Positions 8,644-45,758 of a DNA stretch of 64,000 nt are shown here, one piece after another. Numbering within the stretch: the stretch's first letter is position 1; the number at the start of each line of letters is the position of its first letter. A model generated the notes under the pieces. That model was not told the origin of the DNA. It worked only from the letters and a program-made list of their open reading frames with translations, and did no database searches. Made by a program: the position numbers and the translations under genes. Source of the stretch: Lentzea guizhouensis (GTDB taxonomy: Bacteria > Actinomycetota > Actinomycetes > Mycobacteriales > Pseudonocardiaceae); the NCBI RefSeq assembly GCF_001701025.1, contig NZ_CP016793.1:6944001-7008000 (forward strand), in the 5' to 3' direction.

Positions 8644-11296
8644 TCAGGGCCGGTTCTGGTTCCGGGTGACGTGGTCCAGGCCGGAGAGGTCGAGAATGCG
8701 TGCCGGTGCGCTGCCGGTGCGGGCCGTCAGAGTCAGGTCGCGTCCGCGTTCGTGCGCGCTCGCCTTGGCGTGCAACAACAACGCGACGCCGGAGCTGCTC
8801 AGGTAGGCCAGGCCGGTGAGGTCGAGCTCGACGGGGCGGTCGTCGGCGGTGTCGACCCGTGCGAGCAACGGGGCGCGGAGGTCCTCGACGGTGGCGATGT
8901 CGAGGTCGCCGGTGAGGAAGATCCGCTGGACGCGGTCGTCGGTGTCGTCGGTCAGGCCGGACGTGGGCGCCGGTGCCGCCGGGGGTGCCGCCGGTGCCGG
9001 CTCCGGTGTGGTGGCCGGTCCCCGCTCCTGTTCGGCGGGGACGTGGAAGCGGATCGTCGTGCCCTCGTCGCCCGCCTCGAGGTCGACGTCGTCGCTGAGC
9101 ATGCGGATCATCGCGAGCCCGCGTCCGCGGTAGCCCTTGTCCTCCGGCTGAGGGCGCCAGCGGCCCTGGTCGGCCACCGTGACCCGCACCCCGCGGCCGG
9201 TGGACTCCAGTGCCGTGTCGAACGCCCCTTCACCGGCCGGGTAGGCGTGGTCGACGACGTTCGCGGCCGCCTCGCCGATCGCCAGTTCGAGGTCGTAGAC
9301 GGCGTCCTCGGAGAGCCCGGCGGTCTCGGCCCAGCTGGTGGCCTGTCGGCGCAGCGCGGCCAGCTTCCGCGCGTCGGCGGGCACGTGCAGGTGCAGCGGG
9401 GCGGGCAGGTGCCGGGCGACGACGAGGGCGACGTCGTCGGACTGGCCGTCCGCCAGCACCGCGTCGATGATCCGCTGCACCAGTGCCGCCGGAGCGAGGC
9501 CGGCCGCGGCACCCACCGCGGTGGTGAGCCGGCGGATGCCTTCGTCGAGCACCTCGCCGCGGCGTTCGACCAGCCCGTCGGTGTAGAGCACGACCGTCGC
9601 ACCCGGCGCAGCGCGGTGTGCTGCGGGGCGGGCGCGGCCCGACGCCGAGCACCGCGCCGAGCTTCTCGGCGAGCGGCCTCGCCCCGGTGCCGTCCACGAC
9701 GACGGGTGGCGGGTGGCCGGCCGAGGCCCAGCACAGCTCGCCGGCCTGCCAGTCGAAGACGATGCACGCACAGGTGCTGCCCGCCGCGCCGTTCACGCGG
9801 GTCGCGAAGACGTCCAGGCGCCGCAACGACTCCGCGGGGGAGTGGCCGTCGAGCAGGTACCCGGTCAGCGCGCTGCGCAGCTGGCCCATGACCGCGGCGG
9901 CGGCCGGTCCCTTGCCGACGACGTCGCCCACCGTCAGGCCGACGCGGGTCTCGCCGAGCGGCACGACCTCGTACCAGTCGCCGCCGATCTGGGTGTGCCG
10001 GGTGGCCGGCAGGTACCTGGCCGCGGTCGCGAGCCGGGGGAGCAGCGGGAGCTCGCGTGGCAGCAGGCTCTCCTGCAGCGCCGCGGCGATCGCGTGTTCG
10101 CGCTGCAGCAGCAGTTCACGGGCGGCCTCGGCGCGCTGGCGTTCGGTGACGTCCCTGCCGATGGCCTGCAGTCCCGTCGGCGTGGACTGGATGCTCAGCT
10201 CCAGCGCGACCGTGCTGCCGTCGGCGTGGCGCATCGTGACCACCTCGGAGCCGGCGAGGTCTCCCGGCAGCCCGTCCACGAGCAGGTCGGTGATCGCGGT
10301 GCCGAGCAGCTCGTCAGCGCCGTAGCCGAGCAGGTGGCTCGTCGCCGGGTTGACCGAGACGAACCGCATCTCCAGGTCCAGCAACCAGATCGCGTCGGTC
10401 GCGCGTTCCACGAGCCGCCGGTGCCGCTGCTCGCTGTCGCGCAACGCCCGGTCGGCGTGCGTGCGTTGCATCGACTCCCAGCAGCGGTTCACCACGACCG
10501 ACACCAGGTCGATCTCCTCGCGCGTCCAGTGCCGCACGCTCGCCTGGTGCACGGCCATCGCCGCCACGAACCGCCCGCCGCGCAACAACGGCAGGCAGAT
10601 CACCGCGCGGATCCCGGTCACCCGGTAGGCGGCCAGGTCGCCGGGACCGAGTCGCGGGTCGTTGAGCGCGTCGTCCACCACCCACGGCTCACCGGCGCGC
10701 ATCGCCACCAGCGCACCCTCGCCGAACTCCCGCATCGCGAACCGGCCGGGCAACGGCGGCAACCCGGTGGCGTGGTCGCCGCTCATGACGAAGTGGTTCT
10801 CGTCGGCCTCCGTGCGCGCGTACGCGCACCGGTCGACACCCATGTGCTCGCCGAGCATCCTGGTCGCGAGCGCCATCAGGTCCTCGGCGTCGTCGAGCCG
10901 TTGCGACTCGCGGTCGAGCTCCTCCAGGAACTGCTGCCGCTGCGCCGCCGCCTGCGGAGCCGTCACGTCGATGAGCACACCGCTGCGCAGCGCACCTCGC
11001 ACCCGCGTCTTCTCCAGCAACCACACGAGCCCGCCCTCGGCCGTGCGCACCCGGTAGACCGACTCGTAGTCGCCGGCCGAGCCCCACCGCCGCTCCACGC
11101 TCTGCGTGCGGTCATCGGGATGGGTGATCTCCACCCAGAACCCGGGGTCCTCGCTCCAGGCCCGCGCCGGGTGGCCGAGCAACCGCTCGACCGTGCCCGA
11201 CACGTAGGTGACCGTGCGGTTTTGCGCGTCCCCCTGCCAGACGGCCACGGGCAGGTCGTCCACCAGTGCGGCCAGTCGAGGTTCCGGATCAGTCAT
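8644..11296 (-). pseudogene. PAS-GAF-PAS-SpoIIE phosphatase-HATPase-STAS sensor protein, frameshifted
   Basis: Read across one frameshift near 9610-9650, this encodes about 880 residues: PAS (5-110), GAF (125-280), PAS (285-400), SpoIIE phosphatase (405-625; GGDWYEVVPLGETR, GDVVGKGPAAAAVMGQL, LYTDGLVERRGE), RsbW-like ATPase (635-755; ELAIGEAAANVVDHAYP, GYRGRGLAMIRM) and STAS (790-880; LDLTGLAYLSSSGVALLL). It combines input, phosphatase, kinase and anti-anti-sigma substrate of a partner switch in one chain. The ATG at 11296 begins MTDPEPRL. Upstream of the shift the frame reads AVLGVGPRPP and downstream it resumes at APGATVVLYTDG. If the shift is real, a PAS-GAF-PAS protein with a truncated phosphatase is made. 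It is convergent with the upstream operon. Confidence 0.8.
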
Positions 11297-30382: not shown

Positions 30383-31449
30383 ATGACCGCAGGTGTGCCG
30401 CCGGCGCGGCGGAGCGTGTTCGTGGCCGAGGTCGTCGCGCTGCTCGTGGCCACGGCCGTGGACGCCGCGCTGGCGGTGCGCTCGGGCACTCCGCGGGGAG
30501 TGGCCGGGCCGTTGCTCACGATGGTGCTGCCGTACGCGGGGACGGCGTCGGCGGTGCTGGCGGTGTTGCGGCGGAGGTTTCCGCGGCAGGTCGAACTGCT
30601 CGGCGGCTCGGTCGTGGCGCTGTCCCTGCTCGGCACGGCGACCGCCGGCTGACGCCGGGCAGCCGGTCGTGACCGAGACGCTAGCCCTGTTGCTGGTGGC
30701 CGCCGCGGGGCCGGCGGTTGCCGCGGTGCGGGCGGCGGTGCTCGCCGTCGCCGCCTGTGCCGCAGTGGTGCTCGCGCCGATCGTGCGGTACGGCCTCGAC
30801 TACCCGGCGGCGCTGGTCCCGGTGGCCGCGCTGGCGTGGGGCGCGGCGGTGGCGCTGGGGCTGATCCTCCGGGACGCGGACGCCCGGCACCGCCGCGAGC
30901 TGGAACGCATCCGCACCGAGGACAGGCTGCAGCTCGCGAGGGACCTGCACGACCTGGTTGCGCACCACGTCACCGGGATCGTGGTGCGCACCCGTGCGGC
31001 GCAGGCGCTGGCCGAACAGCGCTGACCGACACGAGCCTGACCGCGCGCCGAGCCGCTGCCCGCCGAGCCTGGTGCTGGGGGACGTGGTGCGCGCGGCGAG
31101 CCAGGGCGTCTCGGTGCGCGTCGACCCCGACGTGGACGGCCTGCGGTTGCCGGCCCAGGTTTCCGTTGCGCTGCACCGGGTTCTGCTGGAGGCGCTGACC
31201 AACACCCGGCGGCACGCGCAGGCCTCGGACGTGCGGGTGACCGCCCGGTCCGACGGCGACGACCTGGTGCTGCGGATCGACAACGACGGTGTGCTCGGCG
31301 AAGCCGCCTGCGGCGGGCACGGCATCATCGGCATGACAGAACGGATGGCGGCGTTGGGCGGCGAGCTGACCGCGGGTCCACACGGGAACGACGGCTGGCG
31401 GGTCACCGCGCGCATGCCCCTCGACGCCGACCTGCCAGGGGGCATCTGA
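30383..31449 (+). pseudogene. NarL-type sensor histidine kinase, frameshifted and internally deleted
   Basis: Three pieces in three frames together make a HisKA_3 sensor kinase. 30383-30652 encodes membrane helices (VFVAEVVALLVATAVDAALA). About 30654-31025 continues with more helices and the dimerisation region RLQLARDLHDLVAHHVTGIV with the phospho-acceptor His. About 31065-31449 encodes the HATPase (VALHRVLLEALTNTRRHA, GGHGIIGMTERMAALGG). Stop codons end the first two pieces, and sequence normally found between the DHp helices and the ATPase seems missing. The last piece overlaps the response regulator by one base. No functional kinase can be made as written. Confidence 0.75.
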
Positions 31450-33977: not shown

Positions 33978-34096
33978 CAGCCGTGCGCGACCTCCAGCCG
34001 TGCGCGACCTCCAGCCGTGCGCGACCTCCAGCCGTGCGCGACCTCCAGCCGTGCGCGACCTCCAGCCTTGCGAAACCCTCAGCCGTGCGAAACCCT
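33978..34096. repeat. Seven 17-bp tandem repeats
   Basis: Five copies of CAGCCGTGCGCGACCTC start at 33978, 33995, 34012, 34029 and 34046. Two diverged copies (GAAACCCT ending) start at 34063 and 34080. The array lies between the terminator of the PRC gene and the stop codon of the convergent PaaX gene, touching the latter. Confidence 0.93.
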
Positions 34097-34935
34097 CAGC
34101 CGCGTGCGTGGATCACGGCAAGAGCGTGCTCACGGGCCGGTGCGCTCAACCGGGTGTTCAGCTCCTCGAACAACGCCTCCGCGGTTACGCCGTTCCACCC
34201 CGGCGGCAGCAGCGCCAGCGGCAGGCCGGGGTCGCTGTAGGGCAGGCGGCGCCACTGGGTCAGCATCGGCACGTACGTCTGGAACGCCTGCGAGGCGCTG
34301 ATCGAGGCGGGCAGCGCGGCCAGGACCGGGCGGTGGCGGCGCAGGAAGTCCGCGTACAGGTCGGCCAGCTCGTCGAGGTCCCACCAGGCCCGCACCTTCG
34401 AGCGCAGGTCGCCGAACGCGAAGTGGTGACCGGCGAAGATGTCCACGTACTCGGCCAGGCCGCGGCGGGCCAGGGTGCGCCTGGTCTCGGCGGCGAGGTT
34501 GCCCGGTGCGATCCACACGCCCGGCGCTGTGGTGCCGAAACCCAGCTGGGTCAGGCTGGTGCGCAGCTCGTGGCGCTTCTCGCGTTCGGACTCCGGTACG
34601 GAGAACACGACCACCAGCCAGCCGTCGTCGGTGGTGGCGCGGCGGCGTTCGAAGATCCGCGCGTCGCCCTCCGCGAGCGTCTCCAGGGTCGGTTCGGCCA
34701 GCGCGTAGCCGGCGGCGCCCTCGCGCCGGTCGCTGATCACCACGCCGCGGCGCTTCAGCCGGGAGATCGACGAGCGCACGGCCTGGCCCTCCACGCCCAG
34801 CTCCGCCATCAGCCCGACGACCGACGCCACCGACAGCCAGTTGTCCTCGCCGCGCGCGTACAGGCCGAAGATCGTGACGATGAGCGGCCCGAGCCGGTCG
34901 CGCCCGGCGAGTGCCACGTCGGCGTCACTGTTCAC
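34096..34935 (-). CDS. PaaX-family transcriptional regulator
   Basis: 279 residues with the PaaX layout: an N-terminal winged helix (about 10-75; LIVTIFGLYARGEDNWLSVA, AVRSSISRLKRRGVV), a central domain (WLVVVFSVPESEREKRHELR, TAPGVWIAPG) and a C-terminal domain (PYSDPGLPLALLPPGWNG). PaaX proteins repress aromatic catabolic genes and are released by aryl-CoA esters. It lies 26 bp downstream of the FAH gene, at the end of the minus-strand arm of a cluster that includes an aryl-CoA ligase, so its ligand may be the CoA thioester made there. Confidence 0.92.
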   Translation of the reverse strand: MNSDADVALAGRDRLGPLIVTIFGLYARGEDNWLSVASVVGLMAELGVEGQAVRSSISRLKRRGVVISDRREGAAGYALAEPTLETLAEGDARIFERRRATTDDGWLVVVFSVPESEREKRHELRTSLTQLGFGTTAPGVWIAPGNLAAETRRTLARRGLAEYVDIFAGHHFAFGDLRSKVRAWWDLDELADLYADFLRRHRPVLAALPASISASQAFQTYVPMLTQWRRLPYSDPGLPLALLPPGWNGVTAEALFEELNTRLSAPAREHALAVIHARG

Positions 34936-34961
34936 CGCGAGGTTCAGCGCCCTCTCCCTCC

Positions 34962-35813
34962 TCAGCTGAGATCCGTGAGGGTGACAGTGTTGCGCAGCTC
35001 GCCGAGACCGCTCACACGTGTCACCACCAGGTCGCCGTCGCGCAGGAAGAGCTGCGGTTCACGGGCGCTGCCGATGCCGCTGGGCGTGCCGGTGAGGATC
35101 ACGTCGCCGGCGCGCAACGTCATGCCGTGGCTCAGCTCGGCGATGATCCGCGCGAACGAGAACGCCATGTCCGTGCTGGAGGCGTTCTGCAGCAGCTGCC
35201 CGTTGACCTCGCACTGCACCTGCAGGGCCGACAGGTCCACGGAGTCGGTCGTCGTGACCCACGGACCGAGCGGCATCGTGCGGTCCAGGCTCTTGCCCTT
35301 GAGCCATTGCCCGCCGTGCGCGCGTTGGAGGTCGCGCTGGGACACGTCGTTGGCGACGAGGAAGCCGAAGACGTGGTCCAGGGCCTTCTCCTCCGGGATC
35401 GACCGGCCGTCGCGCCCGATGACCACCGCGATCTCCGCCTCGTAGTCCCACGACGTGGAGATCGCCGGGTCGTAGGCGATGTCGTCGACCGGGCCGATGA
35501 CCGTGTCCGGCCCCTTGGTGAAGAACGTCGGGCGCTCCGGCACCGACACGGGGTCCTGCCCGCCGCGCTTGCCCTGCGACTCCAGGAAGTGGTCGAGGTA
35601 GTTCCAGCCCGTGCACAGGACGTCCCGGTTGAAGCGGTGCAGCGGTGACTCCAGCCGCAGCGAGGACAACGGCAGCACCTCACCGCGCTCACCCGCGGCG
35701 CCACCTCGCACGATGTCGTCGACCGTCGTGTCCAGCAACGTGATCGACTGCGCGGCCTCGTCCACGACACCCGCGCGGCGCACGCCGCCGACGGTCACAG
35801 ATGCCAGCTTCAC
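34962..35813 (-). CDS. Fumarylacetoacetate hydrolase-family enzyme
   Basis: 283 residues of the FAH superfamily. Metal-binding and catalytic parts are DYEAEIAVVIGRDGRSIPEE, FGFLVANDVSQRDLQ, KSLDRTMPLGPWV and DVILTGTPSGIG. Members hydrolyse, hydrate or decarboxylate 2-oxo dienoates after ring cleavage of aromatic compounds. The neighbours (RidA, cupin, aryl-CoA ligase, monooxygenase) fit such a lower-pathway role. The ATG at 35813 is at the expected N terminus. It lies between RidA (upstream, 36-bp gap) and PaaX. Confidence 0.9.
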   Translation of the reverse strand: MKLASVTVGGVRRAGVVDEAAQSITLLDTTVDDIVRGGAAGERGEVLPLSSLRLESPLHRFNRDVLCTGWNYLDHFLESQGKRGGQDPVSVPERPTFFTKGPDTVIGPVDDIAYDPAISTSWDYEAEIAVVIGRDGRSIPEEKALDHVFGFLVANDVSQRDLQRAHGGQWLKGKSLDRTMPLGPWVTTTDSVDLSALQVQCEVNGQLLQNASSTDMAFSFARIIAELSHGMTLRAGDVILTGTPSGIGSAREPQLFLRDGDLVVTRVSGLGELRNTVTLTDLS

Positions 35814-35849
35814 TATCGCGTCTCCATTTCGCTGATCATGAAAACGCTA

Positions 35850-36269
35850 TTACGATTCAGGAGTGATCAGCCGGTGCTCCGGGATCACGGCCACGCCGAG
35901 GATCTCGATGAGGGCCTCCGGTTGCCACAGCGCGGTGCAGCCGATGCCCGCCATGGCCGGGTAGACGGGCCCGGCGAGCTCGCGCCACACCTCGCCGATC
36001 GCCTTGCCGTTGGCCTGGTAGTCCGGGATGTCGGTGAGGTAGATCGTGATGCTGACCAGGTCCTCCGGCTCGCCGCCCGCCGCGCGCAACGTGGTCAGCA
36101 CGTTGCCGAACGCCTGGCGGAACTGGGCGACGATGCCGCCGGGGACGATCTTCATCTCGGCGTCGGTGGCGGTCTGGCCGCCCAGGTGCAGCGTGGTGCC
36201 CACGAGAGTGCCGTGGGAGTAGCCGCGCGGGGAGGGAAGGCTGGCCGGGTTCACTGCTGCGGGCCTCAT
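35850..36269 (-). CDS. RidA/YjgF-family protein
   Basis: 139 residues of the RidA family with RGYSHGTLVGTTLHLGGQTA, GGIVAQFRQAFGNVLTTLRA and EDLVSITIYLTDIPDYQ. RidA proteins deaminate enamine/imine intermediates, and some members are true 2-aminomuconate deaminases in aminoaromatic degradation. Beside a 2-aminobenzoyl-CoA-type monooxygenase, a deaminase role in the same pathway is attractive but unproven. The ATG at 36269 lies a few bases from a palindrome shared with the divergent cupin operon. Confidence 0.88.
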   Translation of the reverse strand: MRPAAVNPASLPSPRGYSHGTLVGTTLHLGGQTATDAEMKIVPGGIVAQFRQAFGNVLTTLRAAGGEPEDLVSITIYLTDIPDYQANGKAIGEVWRELAGPVYPAMAGIGCTALWQPEALIEILGVAVIPEHRLITPES

Positions 36270-36272
36270 GAG

Positions 36273-36283
36273 TATTGACAATA
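36273..36283. promoter_or_regulatory. Palindrome and -35-like element between ridA and cupin operons
   Basis: TATTG-A-CAATA is a perfect inverted repeat in the 31-bp divergent gap and includes TTGACA (36275-36280), a consensus -35. AAGAAT 16 bp downstream could be a weak -10 for the cupin operon. Candidate binding site for the linked PaaX protein. Confidence 0.5.
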
Positions 36284-36300
36284 TCTGACGGCAGTGAAGA

Positions 36301-36792
36301 ATGCGATATATGGAGCCCGACTCGAGCAGGTACCAGCTCGAAGGCGACAACTCGATGTACCGGCTGCCCAGCGGCTTGGTCGCCCCGGTGGTCACGCGCG
36401 GCGGTGCGGAGAACCCGGACACCGCCAACTCCGGTGGCGCGATCCGGATCTCCGGCGTGAGCATCCAGCACACCCCGGCCACCCGGCTGTGGTTCGGCAA
36501 GGTCACCAACGAGCCCGGCTACCGCTCGGTGACCCACCACCACGGCGAGGCCGAGACCGGCGGGTACGTGCTGTCCGGCCGGGCGCGGATCTACTTCGGC
36601 GAGAGGTTCGAGGACTACGTCGACATGGAGGAGGGCGACTGGGTCTTCGTGCCGCCGTTCATGCCGCACATCGAGTGCAACCTCGACCGCACCCGGCCGC
36701 TCACCTGGATGACCACCCGCACGCCGGAGAACATCGTGGTGAACCTGGCCGACGTCCCCGACGAGGACCTGCGCGACTGGCTGACCCGATGA
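36301..36792 (+). CDS. Single-domain cupin protein, possible ring-cleaving dioxygenase
   Basis: Up to 163 residues. Both cupin motifs are complete: THHHGEAETGGYVLSG (metal ligands His, His and Glu) and GDWVFVPPFMPHIECN (third His). The start is uncertain: ATGs at 36301 and 36310 lie close to the promoter, and one at 36355 has AAGG upstream. Its size is nearer to bacterial 3-hydroxyanthranilate dioxygenase than to the two-domain gentisate dioxygenases. Within this cluster it is the best candidate for opening the ring after thioester release, but a non-enzymatic cupin cannot be excluded. Its stop overlaps the thioesterase ATG. Confidence 0.82.
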   Translation: MRYMEPDSSRYQLEGDNSMYRLPSGLVAPVVTRGGAENPDTANSGGAIRISGVSIQHTPATRLWFGKVTNEPGYRSVTHHHGEAETGGYVLSGRARIYFGERFEDYVDMEEGDWVFVPPFMPHIECNLDRTRPLTWMTTRTPENIVVNLADVPDEDLRDWLTR

Positions 36793-37682
36793 CGGCCGGC
36801 ACGTCGGCGTTCTTCACCTCGGCGGTCACGCTGAAGCAGGCGGAACCGGAGCACTTCGACCTCGCCTTCACCGCCGTCACCCAGCCCTGCCCGTGGCCCA
36901 AGGCGTACGGGGGAGACCTGGTCGCGGCCGCCGCGGCCGCCGCCATGCGCACGGTGACCGACGGCAAGTCGATGCACTCGATGCACAGCTACTTCCTGCG
37001 CCCGGCCGACATCGGTGCCGAGGTGCGCTACGAGGTGGAACTGCTTCGCGACGGCCGCGGCTACAGCACCCGGCAGGTCCGCGGCTACCAGAACGGCAAG
37101 GCCCTCTACGTCTGCCTCGCCAACTTCGCCGCCGGCGAACCGGGCGGCGCCTTCCACGCCGAGCTCACCGACGAGCTGCCCGCGCCGGAAGGACTTCCGA
37201 GCACCGCGGACCACCTCGCCGACCGCGCCGGCGGCACGATGACCGAGGAGTCCAAGGCGTACTGGTCCGGTGGTCGCAGCTTCGACATGCGGCACGTGCC
37301 CGGCCCTGTCTACCTCGCGGTGGAGGGTGATCGCGTGCCGCACCAGGCGGTGTGGCTGCGGCCGTTCGACCCGTTGCGCCAGGTCGAGGGGCTCACCGAC
37401 GCCCAGCGCGACCTCGCCGCGCTGGCCTACATGTGCGACTACACGATCCTCGAACCGGTCCTGCGCGTGCTCGACCTGCCGTGGGCGCGACCGGGGCTGG
37501 TCACCGCGAGCCTCGACCACGCCATGTGGTTCCACCGCCGCGGCCCGGTCGGCGACTGGCTGCTCTACGTGCAGGAGGCGGTCGCCGCCGACGACGGCAG
37601 GGGCCTCGGCCACGGCCGGTTCTTCACCCGCGACCACCGGCACCTCGCCACCGTTGCCCAGGAGGGCATGATCCGCGCCTGA
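36789..37682 (+). CDS. Acyl-CoA thioesterase II (double hot-dog)
   Basis: 297 residues of the TesB family. KAYGGDLVAAAAAAAMRTV and MHSMHSYFLRPADIGAEVRY belong to the first hot-dog domain; VTASLDHAMWFHRRGPVGDW in the second carries the catalytic Asp region. It hydrolyses acyl- or aroyl-CoA. The ATG overlaps the cupin stop (ATGA). Between a ring-cleavage candidate and an aryl-CoA ligase/monooxygenase pair, its likely job is to release the hydroxylated acid from CoA. Confidence 0.9.
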   Translation: MTAGTSAFFTSAVTLKQAEPEHFDLAFTAVTQPCPWPKAYGGDLVAAAAAAAMRTVTDGKSMHSMHSYFLRPADIGAEVRYEVELLRDGRGYSTRQVRGYQNGKALYVCLANFAAGEPGGAFHAELTDELPAPEGLPSTADHLADRAGGTMTEESKAYWSGGRSFDMRHVPGPVYLAVEGDRVPHQAVWLRPFDPLRQVEGLTDAQRDLAALAYMCDYTILEPVLRVLDLPWARPGLVTASLDHAMWFHRRGPVGDWLLYVQEAVAADDGRGLGHGRFFTRDHRHLATVAQEGMIRA

Positions 37683-37702
37683 CCTGCCCGGAAGGACCTG
37701 CG

Positions 37703-39280
37703 ATGGACACCTTCGCCCGCGACCACCTCCCTCCGGCGGCGCTGTGGCCGACGATCGAGTTCACGACGCCGGAGCTCACCTACCCGGACCGCCTCAACGC
37801 CGCGGCCGAGCTGATCGACGGAGCCGTGCAGCTCGACCGCCCCGCGGTGCGGACGGCGGACGGCGAGGTCTGGACCTACGGCGAACTTCGGACGCGCGCC
37901 AACCAGGTCGCGCAGGTGCTCACCGAGGACCTCGGTCTCCAGCCGGGACAACGGGTGCTGCTGCGCTCACCCAACAACCCGTGGACGGTGGCCGCGTGGC
38001 TGGGCGTGCTCAAGGCCGGCGGTGTCGTCGTGACGACCATGGCGGCGTTGCGGACCCGTGAGCTGGCACCGGTCGTCGAACGCACGCGTCCCTCGATCGC
38101 GTTGGTGGACACCAGGTTCGTCGAGGACGTCCGCGCGTTCGAGGGGCTGACCGTGGTGGACTACGACGACCTCGCCGCCAGGTGCGGGACCAAGTCGGGC
38201 GAGTTCACCGCGGTCGACACCGCCGCGGACGACGTGGCACTGCTGGCCCCGACGTCCGGCAGCACCGGATCCCCGAAGATCACTGTGCACTTCCACCGCG
38301 ACGTCCTGTCCATCGACAACACCTTCGGCCGGCACGTGCTGCGGCTGACCGAGGACGACCTGGTGGCCTGCACGGCCCCGTTCGCCTTCACGTTCGGCCT
38401 GGGCATGCTCGTCGTCTTCCCCTTGCGCGCCGGTGCGTGCGCGTTGCTGACCGAGGCCGCCACGCCCGTCCAGGTCGCGGATCTGGTGCAGCAGCACGGG
38501 GTCACGGTGCTGGCCACCGCACCGACGGCGTACAAGGCGATCCTGCGCGAAGGCGTCGAGTCCAAGCTCGCCGGGCTGCGGACCGCGGTGTCGGCGGGTG
38601 AGCACATCCCGCGCGAGACCTGGCAACGATTACGGGACCGGTTGGGACTGAAGGTGATCGACGGCATCGGTGCCACGGAGTTGTTGCACATCTTCATCTC
38701 CGCGGCGGGCGACGACATCCGGCCCGGCTCCACCGGCAAACCCGTGCCCGGCTACCGCGCCACCGTGCTCGGCGCCGCCGGTGAGGAGCTCGGTCCCGGC
38801 GAACAGGGGCGGCTCGGCGTGATCGGCCCGGTCGGCTGCCGCTACCTCGACGACGAACGGCAGGAGGACTACGTGGTGAACGGCTGGAACGTCACCGGCG
38901 ACGTCTTCCACCGCGACGAGGACGGCTACTTCCACTACCACGCCCGCAGCGACCACATGATCGTCTCCTCCGGCTACAACATCGGCGGCCCCGAGGTCGA
39001 GGAGGCCATCGACACCCACCCGGACGTGCTGGAGTCCGCCGTCGTCGCCAAGCCGGACGACGAACGCGGCTCGGTCGTGTGCGCGTTCGTGGTGCTGCGC
39101 GAAGGTGTTGTGGGCGACGAGACGAAGGCGCGTGAGATCCAGGACCACGTCAAGCGCACCATCGCGCCCTACAAGTACCCGCGCGACGTGCGGTTCCGGA
39201 CCTCGTTGCCGCGCAACGCGAGCGGCAAGCTGCAGCGCTTCGCACTCCGCAGGATCATCGAGGACGAGGTGCTCACGTGA
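37703..39280 (+). CDS. Benzoate/2-aminobenzoate-CoA ligase-like AMP-forming enzyme
   Basis: 525 residues of the acyl-adenylate family. The phosphate loop is LAPTSGSTGSPKITVHFHRD, the A4-A5 region DGIGATELLHIFISAAGDD, and the hinge/A8 and A10 parts are ARSDHMIVSSGYNIGGPEVE and PRNASGKLQRFALR with the catalytic lysine. HIFIS and the overall order resemble benzoate-CoA and 2-aminobenzoate-CoA ligases. The ATG at 37703 follows GGAAGGA. Its stop overlaps the start of the monooxygenase gene, which uses a CoA thioester substrate, so the two steps are probably consecutive. Salicylate is an alternative substrate. Confidence 0.88.
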   Translation: MDTFARDHLPPAALWPTIEFTTPELTYPDRLNAAAELIDGAVQLDRPAVRTADGEVWTYGELRTRANQVAQVLTEDLGLQPGQRVLLRSPNNPWTVAAWLGVLKAGGVVVTTMAALRTRELAPVVERTRPSIALVDTRFVEDVRAFEGLTVVDYDDLAARCGTKSGEFTAVDTAADDVALLAPTSGSTGSPKITVHFHRDVLSIDNTFGRHVLRLTEDDLVACTAPFAFTFGLGMLVVFPLRAGACALLTEAATPVQVADLVQQHGVTVLATAPTAYKAILREGVESKLAGLRTAVSAGEHIPRETWQRLRDRLGLKVIDGIGATELLHIFISAAGDDIRPGSTGKPVPGYRATVLGAAGEELGPGEQGRLGVIGPVGCRYLDDERQEDYVVNGWNVTGDVFHRDEDGYFHYHARSDHMIVSSGYNIGGPEVEEAIDTHPDVLESAVVAKPDDERGSVVCAFVVLREGVVGDETKAREIQDHVKRTIAPYKYPRDVRFRTSLPRNASGKLQRFALRRIIEDEVLT

Positions 39281-41667
39281 AGGCCGCTCCCAAGAAGATC
39301 GCCGTCGTCGGCGGCGGCCCCGGCGGCCTGTACTTCGCCGCGCTGATGAAGCAGCTCGACCCCGCGCACGACGTCACGGTGTGGGAACGCGACGCCGCGG
39401 ACGTCACGTTCGGCTTCGGCGTGGTGTTCTCCGACGAGACCGTCGGCGGGATCGAGAACGCCGACCCGGAGTTCGCCGGCGCCATGGCCCGCCGGTTCGC
39501 CCGGTGGACCGACATCGACATCCACTACCGCGGCGAGACGCACACGGTGGGCGGGCAGGGGTTCGCCGCGATGAGCCGCAAGGAGCTGCTCGGCTTGCTG
39601 CAGCGGCGGTGCCGTGATCTCGGCGTGGCCGTGCACTTCTCGACGCCGGCGCCGTACACCGAGGACCTGCGCGCGTCGCACGACCTGGTGGTCGGGGCGG
39701 ACGGCGTCAACTCGCTGGTGCGGCAGTCCTCTTCGGACGTCTTCGGGCCGAGGCTCGACCAGCGGCACAACAGGTACATGTGGCTCGGCACGGACCTGGT
39801 GTTCGAGGCGTTCCAGTTCTTCATCAAGGACACCGAGTGGGGGACCATGCAGGTCCACGGGTACCCCTACTCGGACAGCGGGTCCACGTTCATCGTCGAG
39901 ATGCACGAGGACGTGTGGCGCCGCGCCGGCTTCGACACCGGCGAGCAGTTCCCGCCAGGCGTCTCGGACATGGCCTCGGTCGACCGGGTCCGCGAGCTGT
40001 TCGCCGAGGAACTGGCCGGACACCAGGTGTTCGCCAACAACTCGAAGTGGCTCAGCTTCACGACCGTGCGCAACGAACGGTGGCACGACGGCAACCTCGT
40101 CCTCGTCGGCGACGCCGCCCACACCGCGCACTTCTCCATCGGCTCCGGCACCAAGCTCGCGATGGAGGACTCGCTCGCCCTAGCCGCCTGTCTGCACGAA
40201 CACCGAGACGTCGAAACCGCGCTGACCGCGTACGAAGCCGAGCGCCGCCCCGTCGTGGAGTCCACCCAACGCGCCGCGCAGGCCTCGCTGGAGTGGTTCG
40301 AGAACATCGGCATGTACACCGGCCAGGAGCCGACCCGGTTCTGCTTCAACCTGCTCACCCGCTCGCGCCGGATCACCTACGACAACCTGCGCACCCGTGA
40401 CGCCGAGTTCGCCGACCGGGTCGACGCCGCGTTCGCCGCCGCGCAGGGGTTGCCCTCGACCGTGCCCGCGATGTTCCAGCCGTTCCGCTTGGGACAGTTG
40501 GAACTCAAGAACCGGGTGATCGTCTCGCCGATGGACATGTACTCGGCCGTGGACGGCGTGCCGGGCGACTTCCACCTCGTCCACCTGGGCTCGAAGGCCA
40601 TGGGCGGCGCGGGACTCGTGATGACCGAGATGGTGTGCGTGTCACCGGAAGGCCGCATCACGCCCGGCTGCACCGGTCTGTGGAACGACGAGCAGCGCGA
40701 CTCCTGGGCGCGGATCGTGTCGTTCGTGCACGAGCGCAGCACCGCGCGCATGGGCCTGCAGCTCGGCCACTCCGGCCGCAAGGGATCGACCCGGCTGATG
40801 TGGGAGGGGATGGACGTTCCGCTGCCCGACGGCAACTGGGAGACCGTCGGTCCGTCCGCGCTGCCCTACGGCCCCCAGTCACCCACCCCGCGCGAGGTGA
40901 GCCGCGCCGACCTCGACCGGGTCACCGCCGAGTTCGCCGCCGCCGCCCGCCGTGGTGCCGAGGCGGGGTTCGACCTGCTGGAACTGCACTGCGCCCACGG
41001 CTACCTGCTGTCGTCGTTCCTCTCGCCGGTCGCCAACCAGCGCACCGACGAGTACGGCGGCTCCGTCGAGAACCGCCTGCGGTACCCGTTGGAGGTCTTC
41101 GACGCCGTGCGCGCGGTGTGGCCCGCCGAGCGCCCGATGATCGTGCGCATCTCCGCGACCGACTGGGTCGACGGCGGCAACACCGAACACGACGCCGTGG
41201 AGATCGCCCGCGCGTTCATCGCCCACGGCGCCAACGGGATCGACGTCTCCTCCGGTCAGGTCACCGCTGACGAACGCCCGGCGTACGGCCGCTCCTACCA
41301 GACCCCGCTCGCCGACCGGATCCGCCACGAGGCCGCCGCCGCGACCGGCACCGCCGTCATCGCCGTCGGCGCCATCGCGTCCTACGACGACGTCAACTCG
41401 ATCCTGCTGGCCGGCCGGGCCGACCTGTGCGCACTCGGCCGCACCCACCTCTACGACCCGCACTGGACCCTGCACGCGGCCGCCGAGCAGGACCACCGCG
41501 CGGAGTGGCCCGTCCAGTACCGGGCCGGCAGCCGCAAGCCGCCGACCGCCCGCACCGACGCCGTGCGCCCACGCCTGTCGCTGCTGCGCGCGGACGAGCC
41601 GGACCGGACCGTGCACCTGCGCTGGACACCGCTGACACCACGGGAATCGGCCGTGTCAGTGCCGTGA
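39277..41667 (+). CDS. Bifunctional aryl-CoA monooxygenase/OYE reductase (2-aminobenzoyl-CoA or salicylyl-CoA 5-hydroxylase)
   Basis: 796 residues in two halves. The N-terminal flavin hydroxylase (about 1-385) has IAVVGGGPGGLYFAALMKQ, LVVGADGVNSLVR and GDAAHTAHFSIGSGTKLAME. The C-terminal old-yellow-enzyme barrel (about 395-770) has QPFRLGQLELKNRVIVSPMD, LQLGHSGRKGS, LHCAHGYLLSSFLSP and NQRTDEYGGSVENR. This fusion is the hallmark of 2-aminobenzoyl-CoA monooxygenase/reductase and of enzymes annotated as salicylyl-CoA 5-hydroxylase. It hydroxylates, and may also reduce, the ring as a CoA thioester. The start overlaps the ligase stop. The last codons overlap the first of the phased repeats upstream of the next gene. 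Confidence 0.93.
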   Translation: MKAAPKKIAVVGGGPGGLYFAALMKQLDPAHDVTVWERDAADVTFGFGVVFSDETVGGIENADPEFAGAMARRFARWTDIDIHYRGETHTVGGQGFAAMSRKELLGLLQRRCRDLGVAVHFSTPAPYTEDLRASHDLVVGADGVNSLVRQSSSDVFGPRLDQRHNRYMWLGTDLVFEAFQFFIKDTEWGTMQVHGYPYSDSGSTFIVEMHEDVWRRAGFDTGEQFPPGVSDMASVDRVRELFAEELAGHQVFANNSKWLSFTTVRNERWHDGNLVLVGDAAHTAHFSIGSGTKLAMEDSLALAACLHEHRDVETALTAYEAERRPVVESTQRAAQASLEWFENIGMYTGQEPTRFCFNLLTRSRRITYDNLRTRDAEFADRVDAAFAAAQGLPSTVPAMFQPFRLGQLELKNRVIVSPMDMYSAVDGVPGDFHLVHLGSKAMGGAGLVMTEMVCVSPEGRITPGCTGLWNDEQRDSWARIVSFVHERSTARMGLQLGHSGRKGSTRLMWEGMDVPLPDGNWETVGPSALPYGPQSPTPREVSRADLDRVTAEFAAAARRGAEAGFDLLELHCAHGYLLSSFLSPVANQRTDEYGGSVENRLRYPLEVFDAVRAVWPAERPMIVRISATDWVDGGNTEHDAVEIARAFIAHGANGIDVSSGQVTADERPAYGRSYQTPLADRIRHEAAAATGTAVIAVGAIASYDDVNSILLAGRADLCALGRTHLYDPHWTLHAAAEQDHRAEWPVQYRAGSRKPPTARTDAVRPRLSLLRADEPDRTVHLRWTPLTPRESAVSVP

Positions 41668-41703
41668 CAGCCCGGTGTCCACCCGCTCGGTCACCGTGGT
41701 GGC
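41653..41703 (+). promoter_or_regulatory. SARP-type operator: three 11-bp-phased repeats before the DUF4097 gene
   Basis: GTGTCAG (41653), GTGACAG (41664) and GTGTCCA (41675) start exactly 11 bp apart. The element ACCGTGGTGGC follows at 41693-41703. The same array, with the same 18-bp offset from third repeat to ACCGTGGTGGC, stands before the P450 gene. Repeats one helical turn apart are how SARP/AfsR activators bind, and a SARP-type gene lies between the two. Confidence 0.8.
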
Positions 41704-41738
41704 GACAACCACGGACGACGAGCACGGGAGACACCGAG

Positions 41739-42563
41739 ATGACCACCTTCACCACCCCGAACCCGATCACCGCCGCCCTCACCACCGCCGGCGCCCGCGT
41801 CCGGATCACCGCGACCGACCGCACCGACACCGTCGTCCACGTCGAGCCGGTCGACCGGACGAGCTCCCGTGACGTGCAGGTCGCCGAGCGCACCAAGGTC
41901 GACTTCGCCGATGGCGTGCTGGCGGTCAAGACGACGAAGTCGGGTGCCCGCACCGGTTCCGTCGCCATCACCGTCGAGCTGCCCGCCGGCTCAAGGCTGG
42001 TGCTGCACACCGCGTGGACCGAGGTGCGAGCCGACGGCCGCCTCGGCGACTGCGAGGTCAACCTCGGCTCCGGCCAGGTCCAGCTCGACCACGTCACCGC
42101 GGTGCGCGGTCACCTCGGTGCCGGTGCGCTGGCCGTCGGGCACGTCGCCGGGACCGCCGACATCGAGGGCGGCACCGCCGGTGTGCGCATCGGCGAGGCC
42201 GGCGGCGCCGTCAGCTACCGGGGCAGCAGCGGGAAGGTGTGGATCGGCCACGCCCGCTCCAACGTCGACCTGGGTGGTTCCAGCGGCAGCTTCGACATCG
42301 GCAGAGCGGACGGCGGGGTGGTGGCCAAGGCCGCCGACTGCCCCATCCGGATCGGCCGGGTCAGCCGCGGCCGGGTCGAGCTGATGAACGCTTCCGGCGG
42401 CATCGAGGTCGGCGTCAGCGAGGGCACCGCGGCCGAGGTCGACGCGAGGAGCACGAAGGGGCTGGTGCGCAGTTCCGTTGTGCCGCGGGGAGATGCCGCG
42501 AGCGCCGTCCGGGTGTTCGCCCGCACCAGGCTCGACGACATCGTGATCCACCCCGCTGCCTGA
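41739..42563 (+). CDS. DUF4097-family beta-helix-like protein
   Basis: 274 residues, mostly short beta strands with Gly/Asp/Ser turns (DCEVNLGSGQVQLDHVTAVR, GNVAGTADIEGG-like and FDIGRADGGVVAKAADC). This is the DUF4097 pattern of a right-handed beta-helix. There is no signal peptide or membrane segment, so it is probably cytosolic. Actinomycete DUF4097 proteins often lie beside regulators or transporters, and no biochemical role is known. The ATG at 41739 follows GGGAGACACCGAG. Its promoter has the same phased repeats as the P450 gene, so both are likely targets of the SARP-type activator next door. Confidence 0.8.
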   Translation: MTTFTTPNPITAALTTAGARVRITATDRTDTVVHVEPVDRTSSRDVQVAERTKVDFADGVLAVKTTKSGARTGSVAITVELPAGSRLVLHTAWTEVRADGRLGDCEVNLGSGQVQLDHVTAVRGHLGAGALAVGHVAGTADIEGGTAGVRIGEAGGAVSYRGSSGKVWIGHARSNVDLGGSSGSFDIGRADGGVVAKAADCPIRIGRVSRGRVELMNASGGIEVGVSEGTAAEVDARSTKGLVRSSVVPRGDAASAVRVFARTRLDDIVIHPAA

Positions 42564-42609
42564 CCGGTGTGGCGCCGCCGGGGCAGGGCGGGCTGGCAGG
42601 ATCGAGGGG

Positions 42610-45600
42610 GTGCAGATCAGGATCTTGGGGCCGTTCGAGGTGCGCGGGGACGACGGCGTGGTCGCCGACGTCCCCGGCGCCCGGTTGCGGGGGCTGCTCG
42701 TGGCCCTCGCGCTCACCCCCGGCCAGCCGGTCGGCAAGGCGGCGCTGATCGACTGGATCTGGGGCGAGCAGCCACCGGCCGACGCGGGGAACGCCCTGCA
42801 GCGCCTGGTCTCCCGGTTGCGCAAGGCGTTGCCGGACGCCGTGGTCGAGGGGCTGACCGACGGCTACCGGCTGGCGCTGGACCCCGGCGCGGTCGACGCG
42901 GTGCGGTTCGAACGGCTCGCCGCCGGAGCCGCACCGACCAGGGACCGCCGCGGTGCAACGGCTGCGCGACGCACTGGCGTTGTGGCGCGGCCGGCGATGC
43001 AGGACGTGGGCCTGCCGGACAGCGGGCGTTCGCGGCGGCCACCCGGCTCGACGCGCTGCGCCTGACCACGGCGGAGGACCGGTTCGACGCGGAGATCGGC
43101 CTCGGCCACGGCGCGGACCTGGTCACCGAGCTGACCGACCTGGTGGCGGCGCACCCCGTGCGGGAGAAGCTGGTCGCCGCGCTGATGCGGGCGCTGGTCG
43201 CCGCCGGGCGCAACAACGAGGCGCTGGTCGCCTACCAGCGCACGCGCGAGGCGCTCGCCGACGAGCTGGGCGTCGACCCGTCACCGGAGCTGTCCGAGCT
43301 GCACGTCGCGGTGCTGCGCGGGGAGGTCGGGCGGCGGGAGGAGAACCGGAGGACGAACCTCCGTTCCGAGCTCACCGGCTACATCGGCAAGGCCGCCGAC
43401 GTCGCCGCGGTCCGCGAGCTCGTCGCCGGTCACCGGCTGACCACGTTGACCGGGCCCGGCGGTTCCGGGAAGACCAGGCTGGCGGCGGAGAGCGCGCGCA
43501 CGGTGCTCGGCGACCTGCCGGACGGCGTGTGGCTGGTGGAGCTCGCGGGCATCGGCCCCGGCGACGACGTGGCCTCGGCGACGCTGTCCGCACTCGGTCT
43601 GCGCGACGCGTTGCTCGGTGACGCGCCGGCGGCAGAACCGGTGGACCGGCTCATCACCGCGTTGCGCGACCGGGAGACGTTGCTGCTGCTGGACAACTGC
43701 GAGCACGTGATCGAGGCGGCGGCCGCGCTCGCGCACCGGTTGCTCGGCGAGTGCCCGCGGTTGCGGATCCTCGCCACCAGCCGCGAACCGCTCGGCATCA
43801 CCGGCGAGGCGCTGTGGCCGGTGGAACCGCTGGCGCTGCGGGAGGCGGTCGAGCTGCTGACCGACCGCGCGGCCGCCGTGCGCAAGGACCTCGTGGCCGA
43901 CCCCGCGACGATGGAGCGCGTCTGCACGGCGCTGGACGGGATGCCGCTCGCGATCGAGCTGGCCGCCGCGAGGTTGCGGACGATGTCGCTGGAGCAGCTC
44001 GCCGACCGCCTCGACGACCGCTTCCGGTTGCTGACCGGGGGAAGCCGCACCGCGTTGCCGCGCCACCGGACGTTGCGCGCGATGGTCGACTGGAGCTGGG
44101 AGCTGCTCAGCGACGCCGAACGCGTGGTGCTGCGCCGGCTGTCGGTGTTCGCGGGCGGGGCGAGCCTGTCCGCCGCGGAACGGGTCTGTGCCGGTGACGT
44201 CGTCGAGGAGCACGAGGTCCTCGACCTGCTGACCGCGTTGACGGAGAAGTCGTTGCTGGTGGCGGCCGGCGACGGCGCGCCGAGGTACCGGATGCTCGGC
44301 ACCATCAAGGAGTACGGTGCCGCGCGGCTCGCGGAGGCGGGGGAGACCGAGCTCGCGCGCCAGGCGCACCTCGCCTGTTTCACCGAGCGGGCCGAGACCG
44401 CGGAACCGCGGTTGCGCCGCAGCGAACAGCTGGACTGGCTGGCTGTTCTCAAAGCGGAGCACGACAACCTCGGCTCGGCGATGCGCGGCGCACTGACCGC
44501 GGGTGACGCGCACGCGGCCATGCGGCTCGCCGCGGCGGCGGCCTGGTACTGGTGGCTGATCGGGCGCAAGGCCGAGGGCATGGAGCTGATCACCGCCGCC
44601 ATCGAGACTCCAGGTTCGGTGCCGGACGAGGTCAGGGCCGTGGTGTACGCGCTGACGTCGATGTTCGTGACATCCGGACCGGGTGACGTGCCAGAAGCGG
44701 CGGAGTGGATCCACCGCGCCTACGAGCTGGGCCGGCACAGCCCGCGCTACCACCCGGCGCTGCGGGTCGTCGTGCCGCTGCAACGGTTGCTGCGCGAGCC
44801 GGAGTCCGTGCTGCCGGCGTGGGAGTCGTTGCTGGCCGACGAGGACCCGTGGGTGCGCGCGTTGTCCCGGCTGCACATCGGCAAGATGCTGACCGCACTC
44901 GGACGCGGTGCCGCCGCCGAGGCACACTTCGAGGAGTCGCTGGTCGAGTTCCGCGTCCTCGGCGAACGGTTCGGCATCTCGTTCGCGCAGACCGAGCTGG
45001 CCGACCGGATCGCGCTGCGCGGCGAGTTCGCCGAGGCGTGCGAGCACTTCGAGCAGGCGATCGCGGTCGTCACCGAACTGGGCGCGCTCGACGACGTGGT
45101 CCAGCTGCGGGCGCGCCAGGCCCGGCTGCACTGGCTGATGGGCGACAAGGACGCGAGCGCGGCGGCCGTGGCCGAGGCCGAACGCCGGGCTGTCGGCGTG
45201 ACCTGGCCTGGGACGCTCGCCGCGCTGGCGCTGACGAAGGCCGAGCTGGCGCGGTGGAACGGTTTCGCGGGGGAGGCGTTCGCGCAGCTCTCGATCGCGG
45301 TGGCGTTGCTGGGCGAGGAAGCGCTCCAGCCGCACCTGCGCGCAACCGCCCACGACCTGCGCAGCCACTTCGCGTCGTCGCTGGAGGAGGCCCGTTGTGA
45401 ACGTGCCGCGGCCTGCGCGGCGGCGGCCGAAACCGGGCATGCGCCGGTGATCGCGCAGATGCTCGTCGGGGCCGCTGATCTCGCGTTGCGCCGGGACCAG
45501 CACTCGCAGGCGGCGCGGTTGCTGGCGGCGAGCGCGCGCGTACTCGGTCTGCCGGACCGGTGCAACCCAGATGTTGAGCGCATCTCGCGGATCGTCCGTG

Positions 45601-45692
45601 ATCACCTCGGTGAGCAGGCGTTTTCGGCCGCTTCTGTGGAAGGCGCGGAGGCGGACTGGGAGGAACTGGTGGCGGCGACCGTCGGCCCCTGA
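42610..45692 (+). pseudogene. SARP/AfsR-type BTAD-NB-ARC regulator, frameshifted in the BTAD domain
   Basis: About 1025 residues when joined. The GTG at 42610 starts an OmpR-like winged helix (MQIRILGPFEVRGDDGVVAD, VGKAALIDWIWGEQPPADAG, LQRLVSRLRKAL). Between about 42940 and 43030 the frame changes three times (QRLRDALALWRG, PAMQDVGLPDSG, AFAAATRLDALRL). The rest of the BTAD domain, the NB-ARC ATPase (LTGPGGSGKTRLAAESA; LLLLDNCEHVIEAAAALAHR; ATSREPLGITGEALWPVEPL) and a TPR-like region to the end are intact. Such proteins activate promoters with 11-bp-spaced direct repeats, and both neighbouring promoters have them. As written the full protein cannot be made. Sequencing error in a very GC-rich stretch is a real alternative. 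Confidence 0.8.
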
Positions 45693-45707
45693 CAGCGGTG
45701 GCGGCCC

Positions 45708-45758
45708 GTGTCAGCGCCGTGTCAGCCGGATGTCTGGATCATCGTGGACCGTGGTGGC
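45708..45758 (+). promoter_or_regulatory. SARP-type operator: three 11-bp-phased repeats before the P450 gene
   Basis: GTGTCAG (45708), GTGTCAG (45719) and ATGTCTG (45730) are 11 bp apart, and ACCGTGGTGGC stands at 45748-45758. Spacing and order match the element at 41653-41703, with the same 18-bp offset. It starts 16 bp after the stop of the SARP-type gene. Confidence 0.82.

Follow-up and report, generated by a model that had tools for sequence, protein, structure and literature searches.

A phased three-repeat operator that accompanies a large SARP-type regulator and precedes DUF4097 and P450 genes in Lentzea guizhouensis and, in its relatives, exporter genes too

A stretch of 64,000 nucleotides of the Lentzea guizhouensis genome (contig NZ_CP016793.1, positions 6,944,001 to 7,008,000; hereafter the window) carries a gene for a large SARP-type regulator, flanked by a gene for a DUF4097 (Toastrack) protein and a gene for a cytochrome P450. 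Each of the two flanking genes is preceded by an operator of three direct heptameric repeats placed next to a -10 region. These operators, their spacing and their targets were conserved in relatives, and the operator co-occurred with the ortholog of the SARP. Control of the DUF4097 and P450 genes by the SARP is well supported by this comparison of sequences, and the best reading of the data, which we consider probable, is a small chemical-defence regulon under the large SARP.

Operators in the window and their conservation in relatives

The original prediction had described two phased triples of GTGTCAG-type repeats, and both were recovered, at 41653/41664/41675 and 45708/45719/45730, in exact 11-bp steps. 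The sequence ACCGTGGTGGC occupies the identical spot in both, starting 18 bp past the first base of the third repeat, and is the -10 region. The heptamers are variants: upstream of DUF4097 they read, in order, GTGTCAG, GTGACAG and GTGTCCA (3 mismatches in 21 positions to a perfect GTGTCAG triple), and upstream of the P450 GTGTCAG, GTGTCAG and ATGTCTG (2 in 21). Operator 1 reaches into the final codons of the upstream gene, which stops at 41667 (coordinates of all features are given in Table 1).

With up to three mismatches, the triple repeat was matched twice in the window and never in 100 window shuffles; the 9.99-Mb genome held three matches, and the backwards control none. A relaxed pattern with an in-phase -10 (A..GT) found the identical three sites with zero mismatches, and displacing the -10 by a single base left no match in the genome. 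A chance origin of the repeats was rejected on the basis of the window shuffles, the backwards controls, and the spacer and scrambled-heptamer controls described below. The third genomic operator (at 1,381,598, minus strand; about 9333-9651 in region L069) stands before the initial 37 codons of a DUF4097 homolog; these codons (78% identical) pass straight into a P450 fragment. Here a second copy of the cassette has collapsed, and the site links operator, DUF4097 and P450 by evidence that does not depend on the window.

DUF4097 and an intact SARP served as queries against 150 genomes of the family. DUF4097 found some match in all 150 genomes, with 29 places of at least 53% identity over most of its length, besides fragments. 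Among 35 mapped regions, three congeners (L031-L033) had the trio arranged as in the window and six others (L037, L051, L054, L057, L058, L061) had it in altered order, and L056 had DUF4097, SARP and ABC genes with no P450. In 40 mapped SARP regions, ABC and/or P450 genes mostly adjoined the SARP. Of 144 SARP relatives in a scan of named genomes, 80 were retained (the 80 named loci); they belong to Lentzea, Amycolatopsis, Streptomyces, Micromonospora, Kribbella, Glycomyces and other genera. Genes were identified with a simple script based on codon usage, and their labels were assigned by BLAST comparison with 13 reference proteins.

Repeats that were absent or unphased in related genomes with these three genes had been named as grounds for giving up the proposal. 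The proposal withstood this test: in all 11 named loci with the window's gene order both operators were phased, one of them at 5 mismatches. An operator (up to 4 mismatches, with a phased -10) lay within 250 nt of a gene in 77 of the 80 named loci, and none was found by those criteria in L149, L202 and L209. In these loci an operator immediately preceded 34 of the 35 P450 genes, 52 of the 57 ABC ATPase genes and 12 of the 21 DUF4097 genes; eight of the other nine DUF4097 genes followed operator-led ABC genes, and the ninth (L208) stood behind a 5-mismatch operator.

The -10 (xAnnnT) lay at a single offset for 170 of the 179 operators that had up to 3 mismatches and a gene within 250 nt, and at most seven had it at any other offset. 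When the spacer was varied over the 80 loci, 4-nt spacers gave 103 triples, compared with 0 to 3 at equal spacers of 1-3 or 5-8 nt, and five scrambled heptamers gave 0, 0, 2, 0 and 0. The expected SARP-type geometry, direct repeats a helical turn apart and next to the -10, is supported by these comparisons. In several relatives an ATG follows only 6-7 nt after the -10, suggesting leaderless messages.

The SARP ortholog, defined in the family by at least 58% identity (the next matches were at 54% and below), was present in 52 of the 150 genomes. A strict operator occurred in 46 of these 52, compared with 5 of the 98 others (Fisher 3.5e-26), and the value of 46 was reached in 0 of 20,000 within-genus shuffles. 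This strict scan returned 145 matches in the family, against 10 in the backwards control. Outside the family (196 genomes of the class), an operator with a -10 was found in 8 of 15 genomes that have the ortholog and in 7 of the 181 that lack it; inclusion of a sister SARP clade of 51-57% identity, which was defined after the matches had been seen, changed these counts to 12 of 20 and 3 of 176. A variant operator (GTGTCAG, GTGTCAG, ATGTCAG) was observed in four genomes of family f21 (G208, G224, G262, G293) with a sister SARP group of 54-57% identity, and is possibly a second operator code.

Direct repeats of this period could also be bound by a different regulator with 11-bp units, such as PhoP, whose PHO box is built of 11-bp repeat units with the unit GTTCACC. 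The heptamer GTGTCAG is unlike that unit, and binding by PhoP would leave unexplained why the operator is present or absent together with one SARP ortholog group, within genera too. A PhoP site is known to overlap the AfsR site at afsS (PMC10972967); even so, a reader of this kind instead of the SARP seems highly improbable here.

Breadth of the regulon and the proposed mechanism

The SARP had originally been proposed to drive DUF4097 and the P450 as a three-gene regulon. Both targets were linked to it by the comparison, but three genes proved too narrow a count, since an ABC exporter, hydrolases and more DUF4097 genes have to be included. A DrrA-type ABC exporter belongs to the regulon in most relatives as well, and at other places in the genome the operator fronts serine hydrolases and further DUF4097 genes. 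The P450s that follow the operator in other actinobacteria are CYP105-like. The targets of 198 distinct operators were an ABC ATPase (82), a second ABC type (2), a P450 (68), DUF4097 (34), PadR (1), a hydrolase (1) or another gene (6), and four had no nearby gene; these shares are conditional, the loci having been fetched via DUF4097 or the SARP.

Forty further regions (L224-L263) hold operator matches hand-picked from those of the strict scan, away from the SARP loci and all in SARP-positive genomes. The gene behind 21 of these 40 distal operators matched a beta-lactamase-fold reference (27-76% identity), and Pfam placed both the reference (from L056) and a low-identity case (L238) in PF00144. 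DUF4097 followed in nine (plus L262, already counted), a P450 in five, and PadR, an alpha/beta-hydrolase or an ABC operon in three, while L224 and L236 showed no gene or an unlabelled one. Near the SARP, some operators also front a CAAX-protease-like gene (L187, L216, L219; the tested one, L216, was Rce1-like) and a 134-aa protein (L157, L175; L175 was tested and had no Pfam match), and both are candidate extra members of the regulon.

The ATPase of the relatives' exporter (P0008) scored 313.6 against the drrA model TIGR01188 (cut-off 312.45), and the permease scored 79.9 bits against the DrrB-family model TIGR00025, below its cut-off of 146.9. An ortholog of the ABC genes in the L. guizhouensis genome was looked for and rejected, since full-length matches reached 52-53% identity at best. 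A partial match of 70% belongs to a separate operon without the GTGTCAG operator (L064 6351-10135, about 1.107-1.111 Mb). In that operon a distant DUF4097 gene (33%) is accompanied by genes for a DrrA-like ATPase whose frame seems broken at about 1.109 Mb, for an ABC permease and for a P450 that shares 78% identity with that of the window. Cassettes of DUF1048 and ABC genes were also observed, some adjoining DUF4097; those of L036 (9606-12756), L053 and L240 include PadR, and that of L257 includes an alpha/beta-hydrolase. The operator fronts the cassettes of L036, L240 and L257.

SARPs typically activate biosynthetic clusters (PMC10972967), and DUF4097, P450, DrrA-type ABC and small SARP genes are grouped in the table of the lunaemycin cluster (PMC9866976). 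The regulator could accordingly be an ordinary pathway-specific SARP, with the P450 and ABC genes serving as tailoring and export genes of a cluster. In the 80 named loci the flanks vary, yet SARP, ABC, P450 and DUF4097 recur, and the operator targets are dispersed over the genome; we therefore regard this explanation as quite unlikely, and favour the small regulon of scattered genes.

In the proposed mechanism of that regulon, the large AfsR-like SARP (winged helix, BTAD, NOD and TPR) would be produced from its own repeat-free promoter and, on a signal, would bind the three 11-bp repeats, which occupy the -35 position. The -10 lies 17 bp after the last repeat begins, and the bound SARP would activate a small scattered regulon, predicted to consist in Lentzea of DUF4097 and the CYP105-like P450. 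Elsewhere the DrrA-type ABC exporter, hydrolases of the beta-lactamase fold and a small number of further genes are predicted to join it. Binding of the repeats and activation of transcription are both inferred by analogy with AfsR. A defence role is suggested because the regulon joins export, oxidation, hydrolysis and envelope functions; that exporter, P450, hydrolases and Toastrack protein together protect against toxic small molecules is more speculative, and is the weakest step of the argument.

Several observations weigh against this reading, to which the conditional nature of the target shares has to be added. Six of the 52 SARP-ortholog genomes had no strict operator; five of the six carried a looser one near the SARP (2-5 mismatches, with a -10), and in G065 neither form was found. 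Conversely, five ortholog-free genomes of the family still had a strict match. Of 30 short loci selected automatically, L072 (which coincides with L224), L075, L076, L077 and L082 had no recognised target. Published SARP sites have 8 bp between the last repeat and the -10 (PMC10936776), compared with 10 bp after the heptamer here, a difference that may be a mere choice of register. Finally, the SARP gene of the window is not an intact open reading frame in this assembly, the change of frame being confined to about 42928-43030.

A wider interpretation, which we put forward tentatively and hold to be somewhat less likely than its opposite, is that of a widespread actinobacterial chemical-stress regulon. 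A ligand-sensing STAND-type SARP that had moved out of antibiotic clusters would sense a toxic small molecule or envelope damage through its TPR region and, by means of a single operator code, would activate export and hydrolysis together with P450 oxidation and a membrane scaffold of the Toastrack type. SARPs have mostly been studied as activators of antibiotic clusters, and the present ortholog group has a readable operator, from which its regulon can be listed by sequence. DUF4097 proteins likewise gain a regulatory context alongside exporters and P450s.

The SARP gene and its neighbours in the window

The region 42610-45692 had been described as the SARP-type gene; it measures 3083 nt, which is not a multiple of three, and spans more than one frame. 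Its pieces P0003 and P0004 matched the winged helix and BTAD above cut-off; the NB-ARC model (22.6, cut-off 23.5) and the TPR models in P0004 remained below it, as did AAA. The intact ortholog P0007 has a winged helix (Trans_reg_C) followed by BTAD, as in the large type of SARP, and C-terminal NOD and TPR regions above cut-off (NB-ARC 24.8, cut-off 23.5; TPR_12 36.7, cut-off 30.1). Against the AfsR model NF053617 (NCBIfam) the SARP scored 157.6 bits, far from the cut-off of 1430; by its domains it is a large SARP, not AfsR.

Aligned to four relatives, the window SARP is missing three single bases and a group of four, all inside about 100 bp (seven relatives were taken; the other three carry additional indels of their own), and the resulting break separates the winged helix from BTAD. 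These losses, and the collapse already undergone by the second cassette copy, would fit a true pseudogene, with both operators being relics or read by another SARP. On the other hand, the gene is a single frame of 1023-1046 aa in three congeners, and the rest of the window gene is open for 849 codons (gene call) and 71-81% identical to congeners. Moreover, a histidine kinase at 30393-31449 seems split across two frames (HisKA_3, then HATPase_c), which suggests frame errors in the assembly. Because the frames of this kinase and of the ABC ATPase at about 1.109 Mb also seem broken, an assembly error is the likelier, though not certain, cause of the small deletions, and a pseudogene is considered rather unlikely.

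Table 1. Features of the cassette in the window
Feature	Position	Strand	Basis
Operator 1, triple heptamer at 11-bp steps, before DUF4097	41653..41681	+	sequence, conserved in relatives
-10-like hexamer CACCGT, 17 bp from start of third repeat	41692..41697	+	pattern scan
DUF4097 (Toastrack) protein, 274 aa	41739..42563	+	Pfam PF13349
Probable SARP -10, CAGGAT, no repeats	42597..42602	+	7 nt before GTG start
Large SARP gene (winged helix, BTAD, NOD, TPR)	42610..45692	+	profile matches; frame broken
Operator 2, triple heptamer at 11-bp steps, before P450	45708..45736	+	sequence, conserved in relatives
-10-like hexamer GACCGT, 17 bp from start of third repeat	45747..45752	+	pattern scan
Cytochrome P450, CYP105-like, 404 aa	45784..46998	+	profile + solved-structure match

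Operator control of the SARP gene itself was rejected, as its start has a separate -10 without repeats; the motif GGCAnnAT sits 6-7 nt 5' of the SARP start in 66 of the 80 named loci. This promoter therefore probably provides basal production, followed by activation by a signal. Read-through from the DUF4097 promoter across the 46-nt gap is possible.

The DUF4097 protein passed the Pfam model marginally (23.1 bits, cut-off 22.9). The best solved match of the P450 was CYP105AS1 (404.1 bits), an assignment by closest match and not by formal nomenclature. A GC-rich repetitive stretch with repetitive translations lies 3' of the P450 (47200-48050). Upstream of DUF4097 (34096-41667) there are catabolic genes of an aromatic-acid type, including a PaaX-like regulator, FAH hydrolase, RidA-like protein, cupin, acyl-CoA thioesterase, benzoate-CoA-ligase-like enzyme and a salicylyl-CoA 5-hydroxylase/oxidoreductase fusion. 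A link to these genes was rejected: the fusion gene was matched once in the 35 mapped regions (33%, partial, L056).

Comparison with known systems

No description of the operator, the SARP ortholog group or the regulon was found in the open-licence literature searched. Among the closest known regulators is AfsR of Streptomyces coelicolor, which occupies a pair of 11-bp repeats that overlap the -35 and makes contact with both sigma and RNA polymerase; the NOD and TPR regions of AfsR are inhibitory until ATP binds, and its inducer is described as not known (PMC10936776). The AfsR-afsS system shares with the present one the domain order and 11-bp direct repeats before a weak -10, which in afsS is CACTGT (PMC10936776). 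It differs in having two repeats rather than three, another repeat sequence and other targets. The recognition-helix residues S91, R92, R94 and K95 of AfsR are retained in P0007, and T88 is replaced by R, which would fit a related binding mode with a different heptamer. What large SARPs sense was left open in the AfsR paper (PMC10936776), and the ortholog group offers a test system for this question.

Three heptameric repeats are also found with the cluster SARPs DnrI, ActII-ORF4 and PimR, in PimR with 4-nt spacers (PMC10972967). Those regulators act on antibiotic clusters, whereas here the targets, genes for exporters, P450s, hydrolases and DUF4097 proteins, lie scattered; moreover, the PimR repeats are described as not overlapping the -35 (PMC10972967), unlike the present operators.

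Toastrack genes of the PSP network accompany ABC transporter and regulator genes, also PadR and HAAS, and the proteins were proposed to aid assembly of sub-membrane signalling complexes (PMC11237479). Unlike the cassette described here, the accessible part of that account mentions SARP, BTAD and P450 nowhere. In the lunaemycin cluster of Streptomyces lunaelactis the SARP has 285 aa and lies inside a peptide cluster, DUF4097 is listed as unknown, and no operator was seen in the portion of the paper available (PMC9866976). DUF4097, P450, DrrA-type ABC and SARP genes nevertheless stand together there as well, and the cluster table is the nearest printed association found (PMC9866976).

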